Origin: Syntrophobacterales bacterium
Lineage (GTDB): Bacteria > Desulfobacterota > Syntrophorhabdia > Syntrophorhabdales > Syntrophorhabdaceae
DNA length: 64,000 nt
Direction of reading: 5' to 3'
NCBI GenBank assembly: GCA_031274925.1
Contig: JAISPL010000006.1
Span: forward strand, 62,001 to 126,000
This document shows positions 13,219-57,054 of the stretch, one piece after another (within the stretch, counting starts at the first letter, position 1; each line of letters begins with the position of its first letter). A program made the translations under genes and the position numbers. Under the pieces are notes generated by a model. It had not been told where the DNA came from. It saw nothing but the letters and a program-made list of their open reading frames with translations, and made no database searches.

Positions 13219-13272
13219 AGGGGTCAAGTCTTTATTCTTGACAAAATTTTAAAGAATAAAGACTTGACCCCT
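13219..13272. repeat. Long perfect palindrome between the dGTPase-like gene and valS
   Basis: Two arms of 21 bases (13219-13239 and 13252-13272) are exact inverted repeats around a 12-base AT-rich spacer, which itself contains aaaatttt. The arms begin with ggggtcaagtc and contain tttattctt. The hairpin could act as a bidirectional terminator, or it could be a dispersed REP-like palindrome. It fills most of the gap between the valS start and the upstream stop codon. Confidence 0.9.
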
Positions 13273-28923: not shown

Positions 28924-29290
28924 ATTTTACCACTTTCGACAAAAATATTCAATTAATAATAGGTTTCACATGTTTAGGAACGCTTACCGGACGTAAATTC
29001 CGTTACCCCTTCTCTTCTATTTCACCCCCCCTCACTTTTTCTTTGCGATTGAATTGGCAGTACGAAGTCTGCGTGCCGGTCAGTCACACCATAGTGTATG
29101 CAGAAGAAGGAGTGCTTGAGGAAGAGCGGGGTCAGGCATGGTCCTGCTCTTTTGTCATTCGGACCGCAAATGGCCTCCAGCGTTCCCAACTATCCCGATT
29201 AGTACGCATCTCTCATTTGACCTCAACCAAGGAAAAGTTTTTTTAAAATAAGTTTAATATTTGAGACTGCCACCAACAAAATGACAATAT
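28924..29290. other. Intergenic stretch upstream of carD
   Basis: About 370 bases holding a short plus-strand frame (29043-29246) that has no ribosome binding site or recognisable domain. The carD promoter should lie here but cannot be fixed. The region ends at the palindrome that marks the transposase relic. Confidence 0.35.
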
Positions 29291-29326
29291 TTCATAGTGT
29301 CACCAAATAAGTGGTGACACTATGAA
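29291..29326. repeat. Perfect 15-bp inverted repeat at the start of the transposase relic
   Basis: Arms at 29291-29305 (ttcatagtgtcacca) and 29312-29326 are exact inverse complements around a 6-base loop. The right arm includes the ATG of the transposase relic. It may be an element end folded on itself, or a hairpin that limits transposase translation. Confidence 0.85.
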
Positions 29327-29885
29327 ATGCAGGAAATGGGGAAGTAAAAAATCAGTAAAGAAAGGCCAGCGCTTAGGGCGCCAGCGATACAAGCGCAAAG
29401 ACTGTGGTTTTCTAATTCACTCAAGAAGGACCTAAAAGGTAAGGATGTCGCGACCTAAGTTCCTGTCAATCATTCTCTATGTAAATGGCTTGTCGTCTCA
29501 AACCATAACGAAGGTTTCACGCAAAGTAGTCTACGATTGGGCAAAGAGAGGCTTATGAAAAGTCGAGGCCCTCCGGGGTTGTGGTAATCGAGTTTGGTGA
29601 GATGTGGCACTTTCTGAATATTCTGGCTCTGGAACACTGCAGGTCAATTTCATCGACAGTGGTGCCTTGGCTTGATCTAAGCGTCTCCCTCTTCTTATCG
29701 GATAGATGGGAATCGTACACCGGAACTGCTAATCCAACCAAAATGTGAGAGACCCACGCTATTGAACGTAACAACTTTCTTGAGCGGCATTGGTTCGGGC
29801 GCCTCAGGCGTAAAATGTGCATTGTATCCCGCAGCTTATTTATGGCTGACCTGACTATCTTAATTGTTCGCTCGCCTCCGTATTA
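29322..29885 (+). pseudogene. IS1-family-type transposase remnant
   Basis: The first 37 codons (29322-29435) are intact: a zinc-ribbon start MKCRKWGSKKSVKKGQRLG, then RYKRKDCGF, as in InsA-like transposase N-termini. After the stop, successive frames give VNGLSSQTI, then VIEFGEMWHF (around 29590), SDRWESYTG, and AIERNNFLERHWFGRLRRKMCIVSRSLFM (around 29760-29850). The last resembles the conserved C-terminal end of IS1-type DDE transposases. Several frameshifts and stops make it inactive. No clear right-hand terminal repeat was found. Confidence 0.8.
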
Positions 29886-34825: not shown

Positions 34826-34863
34826 AATCAAAGGGCTTCTCGCGAGAAGCCCTTTGATTTTAA
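34826..34863 (+). terminator. Rho-independent terminator after dctQM
   Basis: A perfect palindrome of 17-base arms (34826-34842 and 34843-34859), with the core agggcttctcg, is followed by a short T run. It folds into a strong hairpin and lies 33 bases after the dctM stop codon. Confidence 0.85.
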
Positions 34864-55208: not shown

Positions 55209-55982
55209 ATGAAAAAAAGAAGTCCGTCTATACTGTTTATTGCAATATTCATGTTTGCTTTCGCCATTCATGGGTATGCGGACCCTGTCACGGAAGGGAC
55301 CGCCAAAACGAAAAACAACCAAGAAACGGTAACGGTGAAGGAATCTGTGGAAGAAGGGTTCAAGAAAAACTTTCCAAACATAAAGTTTGACGCTATCAAT
55401 CCGACTGATATAAAGGGTATATATGAAGTCGTGGTGGGTACCAAAATAGGGTATTTCGCACCCGAAACCGGCTATCTCATTGTCGGTGAGATAAGAGATA
55501 AAAGCGGGGCCAACCTTACGGCAAACAGAAGAAATGAGATCATTGCCTCTAAAGCAAAAAGCCTTCCCCTTGATAAGGCGATAAAGATCGGCTCTGGGCC
55601 ATCAACGGTCATAGAATTTACCGATCCGGACTGCCCGTTCTGCAGGAAGGCGTCCACTTTCCTCAACCAAAAGACGGACGCGACAAGGTATATATTCTTC
55701 GTACCTCTGCCCAATCATCCCGATGCAGAGAACAAGGCTAGGTTTGTATTCTGCGCCACAGACCGGGCCAAGGCATACGAAGAGGCCATGACCGGGAAAC
55801 TGGATGACAAGAAATATGAAACATGCAAAAAACCAGAGGTGGAAGGCCTCCTCAAAGCACACAAAGGGCTTGCCAATAAAATGGGTATAAGCAGTACACC
55901 TTTCTTTATAGCAAACGGCAAAGCGATACCCGGCGCAGACATCCCGAAACTTGAGGAAGCATTGAAGCAGGACGGGAAGTAA
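55209..55982 (+). CDS. Thiol:disulfide interchange protein, DsbC-like
   Basis: The 257-residue exported protein has a signal peptide (hydrophobic core LFIAIFMFAFAIHGYA) and an N-terminal DsbC dimerisation-like domain. The thioredoxin-like catalytic domain contains TDPDCPFCRKASTFL with the CPFC active site. A second Cys pair (FCATDRAKAYEEA / YETCKKPE) is usual for DsbC. It probably isomerises disulfides in the periplasm. The ribosome binding site AGGAGGAAG is excellent. It is the last gene of the queH run. Confidence 0.9.
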   Translation: MKKRSPSILFIAIFMFAFAIHGYADPVTEGTAKTKNNQETVTVKESVEEGFKKNFPNIKFDAINPTDIKGIYEVVVGTKIGYFAPETGYLIVGEIRDKSGANLTANRRNEIIASKAKSLPLDKAIKIGSGPSTVIEFTDPDCPFCRKASTFLNQKTDATRYIFFVPLPNHPDAENKARFVFCATDRAKAYEEAMTGKLDDKKYETCKKPEVEGLLKAHKGLANKMGISSTPFFIANGKAIPGADIPKLEEALKQDGK

Positions 55983-56221
55983 CCTAAAACAATTTGGCGC
56001 AGAGTGAAATAGACAGTCGTCAGAGCGGGCCTCCCCTTAAGGGCGCTCTGACAAAAAAGCAGCTAAGTATTCCCCTCACCCCTCTTGAGGAGCCAAAAGT
56101 ATACGCCCTTAAGGGGGTCTTTTAAGCGAGAGTTAGGGTGAAAGGGAAATTTTATACAGTTAAAAGGCTTAAAGCGGCTTTAAAAAGCCAAGAATCTGTG
56201 GAATGATGCAGAACAATTCCG
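55983..56221. other. Intergenic stretch after the DsbC-like gene
   Basis: A 9-base hairpin gtcagagcg/cgctctgac (56019-56027 with 56044-56052) follows the gene but is followed by A rather than T, so it is a poor terminator for the plus strand. The rest shows no gene. Confidence 0.4.
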
Positions 56222-56460
56222 GCCGTTATTTCGTGCCTCAACCTGGTTAAACACCGGACAAGGCGGGAATCCAGGAGATCATAGGCCATTGAGCTAAACT
56301 AAAAGATTCCTGGCCTGTCCTTGATACCTTTACCGGGGCCAAGCACGAAATGACGGCGGAGAAACTAACCAAAGCTGCTCTGGCTCTAAGCACATCTGAC
56401 TTTGTCTGCTTAGATCTTTCTCCGCCGCCATAAATTCCATGTAGCCTCTCGCATGGAATT
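56222..56460. repeat. Compound palindromic element in the dsbC/isochorismatase interval
   Basis: Several nested inverted repeats occur. The outer pair is 56222-56236 with 56343-56357 (15 positions, one G-U wobble). Within it are ccagga/tcctgg (56271-56276 with 56308-56313) and ggac/gtcc. An overlapping second hairpin uses cggcggagaa/ttctccgccg (56354-56363 with 56418-56427) and, inside it, ctaagca/tgcttag (56386-56392 with 56407-56413). A third is aattccatg/catggaatt (56433-56441 with 56452-56460). The gggaatccagga core resembles common dispersed palindromic repeats. No coding sequence is present. Confidence 0.75.
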
Positions 56461-56496
56461 GCACTGTGCTATACTCTCTTTATCCGGAGGTGCCCT

Positions 56497-57054
56497 ATGG
56501 GCAATACATTCGATCAGAAAAAGATGATCACCCGTGATGACTGTCTCCTCGTCATCATCGACGCCCAAGAGAAACTCATGCCCGCCCTATCCCACGGGGA
56601 TGAAATTACCGCCAATCTGGTTCGCCTGGCGCAATTCTCGCGGATCATTGGTTTCCCTGTAATTGTGACCGAGCAAGAGAAGCTCGGGGCCACATTGACT
56701 GTCATAAAAGACCATCTGTCCGGCTTGGAACCGGTGAAGAAGGTCCATTTCAACTGCTTCTCTTCCCATGATTTCAACGACCGTATCCTCGCCTCCGGCA
56801 GAAAGACGATTATCCTTGCAGGCGCCGAGGCCCACATCTGCGTGGCCCAGACGGCCCTCGGAGCGCCGGCCGGGTACACGGTCCATGTGGCCGCCGATGC
56901 CATATCTTCCCGCACGGTCCAAAACAGAGAGATCGCCCTAAGAAGGATGCTCCACGCCGGATGTGTTATCACTTCCACTGAGATGTTCATGTACGAAATC
57001 CTTCGAAAAGCCGGGACGGACGAATTCAAAGCTGTCCTTCCTCTCGTCAAGTAG
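56497..57054 (+). CDS. Isochorismatase-family hydrolase (YcaC-like)
   Basis: The 185-residue cysteine hydrolase has the family triad. The aspartate is in LLVIIDAQEKLMPAL (D22), the lysine in VKKVHFNCFSS, and the nucleophile cysteine in AEAHICVAQTALGA. The family includes nicotinamidases, isochorismatases and YcaC proteins of unclear substrate; no residue points to a particular one. The ribosome binding site CCGGAGG stands well before the ATG. It is preceded by the palindromic element and followed by 220 bases of intergenic DNA. Confidence 0.88.
   Translation: MGNTFDQKKMITRDDCLLVIIDAQEKLMPALSHGDEITANLVRLAQFSRIIGFPVIVTEQEKLGATLTVIKDHLSGLEPVKKVHFNCFSSHDFNDRILASGRKTIILAGAEAHICVAQTALGAPAGYTVHVAADAISSRTVQNREIALRRMLHAGCVITSTEMFMYEILRKAGTDEFKAVLPLVK

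Follow-up and report, generated by a model that had tools for sequence, protein, structure and literature searches.

The window, the whole stretch of 64,000 nucleotides that was analysed, contains a gap of 514 bases between a DsbC-like gene, which ends at 55982, and an isochorismatase-domain gene, whose start at 56497 had been named in the preliminary description of this DNA and is upheld here. The features of the locus, with the REP-like units entered as we read them, are the following.

55209-55982, plus strand: DsbC-like disulfide isomerase gene, upstream (Pfam DsbC_N and Thioredoxin_2)
56222-56279, plus strand: first putative REP-like unit, with tag CGTT, half-stem ATTTCGTGC, expanded middle and tail GGACAAGGCGGGAATCCAGG (alignments A1-A3)
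56299-56357, minus strand: second putative REP-like unit, inverted, with tag CGTC, ATTTCGTGCTTG, middle and AGGACAGGCCAGGAATC (nhmmer match to the own-genome C30 copy, E 0.0053)
56222-56357, no strand: inverted dimer with outer 15-base stem, tags outward and tails inward (layout as in the REP pairs of relatives)
56350-56431, no strand: second palindrome, a 15-base stem that encloses two hairpins, one of 8 bases (56385-56392/56407-56414) and one still smaller (inverted-repeat search and fold)
56433-56460, no strand: perfect 9-base dyad with a 10-base centre, arms 56433-56441/56452-56460 (9/9 pairs), just upstream of the -10-like box and with no T run
56467-56475, plus strand: extended -10-like box TGCTATACT of the isochorismatase gene (read from the sequence)
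56497-57054, plus strand: isochorismatase-domain hydrolase gene (Pfam PF00857, Isochorismatase, 96.7 bits against a cut-off of 27)

The inverted repeats are real and lie far beyond chance. When the 514-base gap was shuffled 300 times and searched for inverted repeats of 14 or more pairs with no more than one mismatch, no shuffle had two such repeats and a single shuffle had one; the folding energy of 56222-56460 reaches z -6.3 on the plus strand and z -5.4 on the minus strand, and on neither strand did any of 200 shuffles fold as well. The 15-base outer stem described previously is borne out at 56222-56236/56343-56357, where 14 Watson-Crick pairs are completed to 15 by a T-G pair on the plus strand. 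The second stem is likewise present, at 56350-56364/56417-56431, and measures 15 bases (14 Watson-Crick) rather than the 10 ascribed to it, while the third, 9-base hairpin is the dyad at 56433-56460, which occurs once in the window and could be an operator. The first two palindromes do share bases, over the eight positions 56350-56357 instead of 56354-56357. The statement that only one of them can form at a time was too strong, since the minimum-energy fold of the plus strand holds the full first stem together with a shortened second stem. Forced to the extremes over 56209-56466, the full first stem gives -88.7 and the full second stem -85.0 kcal/mol on the plus strand (3.7 apart), and -95.4 and -98.9 kcal/mol, respectively, on the minus strand (3.5 apart). 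The T-G pair fills out the first stem on the plus strand and the second on the minus strand, and neither strand is therefore favoured throughout. Another overlapping pair of palindromes occupies the same gap, formed by GTCAGAGCG/CGCTCTGAC (56019-56052) and CCCCTTAAGGGCG/CGCCCTTAAGGGG (56033-56045/56104-56116, 13/13 pairs), and further long inverted repeats are found in the window at 13219-13272 (22/23 pairs), 29289-29328 (17/17) and 34826-34859 (16/16).

Could these structures constitute a cis-acting RNA switch, in which alternative leader hairpins control the expression of the isochorismatase gene? Such a role had been put forward at the outset, and the strength of the fold on both strands and the 8-base overlap of the palindromes speak for it; against it stands the ability of both hairpins to coexist, together with the lack of any terminator-like hairpin or T run in the element. 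The -10-like box TGCTATACT sits 3' of all hairpins of the gap; it was not called in the promoter scan because a good -35 is absent. No Rfam family reaches its gathering score over the element, the sole hit being a 15.6-bit snoRNA match obtained by chance at a lax threshold. In the sister species G029 (65% protein identity) the dsbC and isochorismatase genes are adjacent across a gap of 61 bases, which contains a different hairpin and lacks the element. The element is also absent before the isochorismatase orthologue in two genomes of the same genus and at all other orthologue loci displayed, the upstream comparison covering 30 places with the window's own included, and the 38 other genomes of the family hold no match to the whole of it. 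Neither a known RNA family nor a leader conserved before orthologues, either of which would mark a riboswitch or leader RNA, was found in Rfam or at the displayed loci. A GTTTATAHT motif occurs within 150 bases upstream in 12 of these 30 loci, among which the window's own is counted as non-matching. With the element missing from G029 and from the displayed orthologues, and the box placed past the hairpins, a leader switch is thus unlikely, and we accord it a very slight probability.

The same folding scores would suit a free-standing structured small RNA at 56222-56431, encoded on either strand. Against this reading, neither a promoter-like nor a terminator-like site lies at the ends, the 38 other family genomes yielded no relative in which the structure is conserved, and the T-G pair singles out neither strand; we regard such an RNA as quite improbable.

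The other idea of the preliminary description, a palindromic mobile repeat, is the better supported of the two, through decayed units and a family resemblance and not through many copies in the own genome. A 321-base query has a single match in the own genome of 2.06 Mb, and the whole element is single-copy; elsewhere, among the 38 other family genomes, its matches are confined to 5 and are all short (21 to 30 bases, with E values from 0.04 to 0.09), several of them falling on GTCATTCCGGC...GCCGGAATCCAGG repeats. No copies of the whole element were found on plasmids and phages. The gggaatccagga core, which had been taken to favour a dispersed repeat, has no dispersed copies by itself, as GGAATCCAGGA occurs twice in 2.06 Mb and its reversed-pattern control once. 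The second palindrome gives no match below E 0.09 in the 38 other family genomes, and the stem pattern of the second hairpin has 0 matches in viral contigs; this palindrome is read here as unrelated to the dimer, and these searches yielded no relative of it. Having nothing similar elsewhere, which had been named, together with the lack of a transcript, as an argument against both ideas, is true of the whole element and not of its arms.

Within the dimer the CGTC and CGTT tags face out and the GGAATC tails face in. The minus arm, with GC-CGTC-ATTTCG, bears the CGTC tag, in place of which the plus arm has CGTT; the tails read GGAATCCAGG (perhaps CCA-type) in the plus arm and GGAATCTTTT in the minus arm. 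With up to three mismatches the 15-mer GCCGTCATTTCGTGC has 57 matches in the own genome against 39 in a control, a slight excess, and most of these matches are therefore due to chance. One of them, C30:45289-45351 in the gap before a tRNA-Val gene, is a unit related to the minus arm: the two match over about 57 bases (nhmmer E 0.0053, reciprocal 0.0092, both values for a genome-sized search space), with an alignment score reached by 0 of 2000 shuffles, evidence that is somewhat weakened because C30 was picked from among the 57 matches. Compared with C30 alone, the plus arm shows no convincing likeness (93 of 2000 shuffles do as well), nor are the two arms significantly alike outside the stem (153 of 2000). 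In the consensus of the units the stem is broken and the middle exceeds 20 bases. Copies of the unit in the own 2.06 Mb comprise the two arms and C30, other candidates being weak: C37, inside an apparent ABC-transporter gene, and C26, in apparent coding sequence, were discarded as chance matches, and C4:38106 has E 0.16 with a model described below.

The relatives of this bacterium are rich in REPs. The ordinary form (GTCATTCC...GGAATCCAG, searched as GTCATTYC-N5-34-GGAATCCAG) is present in 21 of 39 family genomes, with controls at 0 throughout, and reaches 44 copies per genome (G008); it occurs once in the own genome and 0 times in G029. By eye, among the matches listed, G006 has 11 REP pairs oriented like the window dimer within a span of at most 170 bases, and 0 in the opposite orientation. 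A model that uses sequence alone, built on both arms together with C30, finds one weaker place in the own genome, inside a gene, three places in G029 (best E 0.09) and none in G028. Model R2 was built from four units, namely the two window arms, C30 and G029:C83 (L112), the last included though weak alone (E 4.2). In 25 of the 39 family genomes it finds matches with E no higher than 0.5, and the strict REP pattern is contained in 12 of the 27 non-training matches that were fetched as loci and checked. Two of these 12, G025:C4 and G022:C169, are nested REPs of the long kind in which, as in the window, the closing half-stem is preceded by a GGRCAGGC block. The pattern GTCATT-N-GGRCAGGC-N-GGAATC, devised after the long REPs had been seen, matches only these two and the window minus arm among 46 genomes of the order, with controls at 0. 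The long REPs of relatives at L138 246-304 and L144 1501-1558 enclose a nested palindrome, CCCGGATC...GTCCGGG. Three genome-contig matches to GTCATTYCGKGCYTG-N-GGACAGGCC, from Entotheonella, a gammaproteobacterium and a deltaproteobacterium, are all short REPs of the ordinary kind, in which the second block lies beyond the unit, and therefore lend no support to the long form.

A profile drawn from relatives only is a fair independent test, and it does not single out the window arms. One such profile, built from the two long REPs found in relatives, places C30 at the top (E 0.14) and the window arms at E 3.1; a six-REP profile gives them E 2.2. The link between the arms and the REPs of the family is therefore graded as probable, not proven. 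The failure of this profile to find the arms would also fit an unrelated palindrome-rich insertion that resembles REPs by convergence, such as a MITE or insertion-sequence remnant, as would the length of the gap (514 bases against 61 in G029) and the AATTCC on either side (56215-56220 and 56433-56438), which might be a target duplication, though a short one. The extent of the C30 match and the REP matches of model R2 argue against such an origin, to which no plasmid or phage match lends substance; we consider it rather unlikely. The gap contains no transposase gene. A link to RAYT transposases was rejected: the own genome has one IS200-like gene, split into two fragments and containing stops, and GTCATTYC is absent from the four Y1_Tnp loci that were fetched and examined, of 11 matches. 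An IS200-like transposase gene remnant interrupted by stops lies at G000:C53:19346-19680 (L123). An integron attC site was dismissed by eye, the stem ends having no GTTRRRY/RYYYAAC pair, the motif of such sites.

What, then, could be the nature of the element? We favour, as a reading with somewhat better than even prospects, that 56222-56357 consists of two long palindromic units, loop-expanded and kin to the CGTC-tagged REP repeats of the family, in an inverted dimer that has since decayed. Between dsbC and the isochorismatase gene this dimer has an unrelated palindrome and a dyad as its neighbours. As DNA it may extrude as a hairpin or cruciform; read-through from dsbC would produce stable RNA hairpins, which might slow the 3'-5' decay of the dsbC message, and the dimer would have no switch role toward the downstream gene. 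A more speculative view, to which we attach a low probability, is that the units belong to a class of long CGTC repeats not described before, with a second palindrome (GGATC...GGRCAGG) in the middle; their own stems would have decayed, leaving them to pair only as an inverted dimer, with selection acting on the dimer stem instead of the hairpin of the unit. If the element is a decayed REP dimer, its low-copy, decaying long forms and the REP-rich relatives would make it possible to follow the extinction of such a family; beyond that, the main gain is that others are spared the chase of a false riboswitch.

How does the element compare with the known kinds of palindromic repeats? It resembles palindromic MITEs in being a long inverted repeat without a gene, and differs from them in its single copy and in a target duplication that is not certain. 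With the GTAG REPs and REPINs, which are associated with RAYT transposases, it shares the layout of an inverted palindromic dimer; unlike in these, its unit ends carry no GTAG tag, and an intact REP transposase was not found in its own genome, where the gene matched by Y1_Tnp is short and broken. The closest comparison is with the CGTC-tagged REPs, which, according to Di Nocera et al. 2013 (PMC3733652), have a CGTC end, a stem of 8-9 bp beginning with AT, a loop of 4-5 bases and a CCA tail, occur as inverted dimers, and have neither a dedicated transposase nor a known mobilising enzyme. Measured against that account, the window units show the CGTC tag (in the minus arm only), the AT stem start and what may be a CCA-type tail (in the plus arm), and the element has the layout of an intergenic inverted dimer with no linked transposase; their copy number is very low, and they depart from that account in having, in place of the short stem and loop, a middle of more than 20 bases and a partly broken stem. 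Since the dimer layout, the AT start and the tag of a single arm agree and the stem and loop are at variance, we do not file the element as a member of that group, and so describe it as built like a decayed REP dimer.
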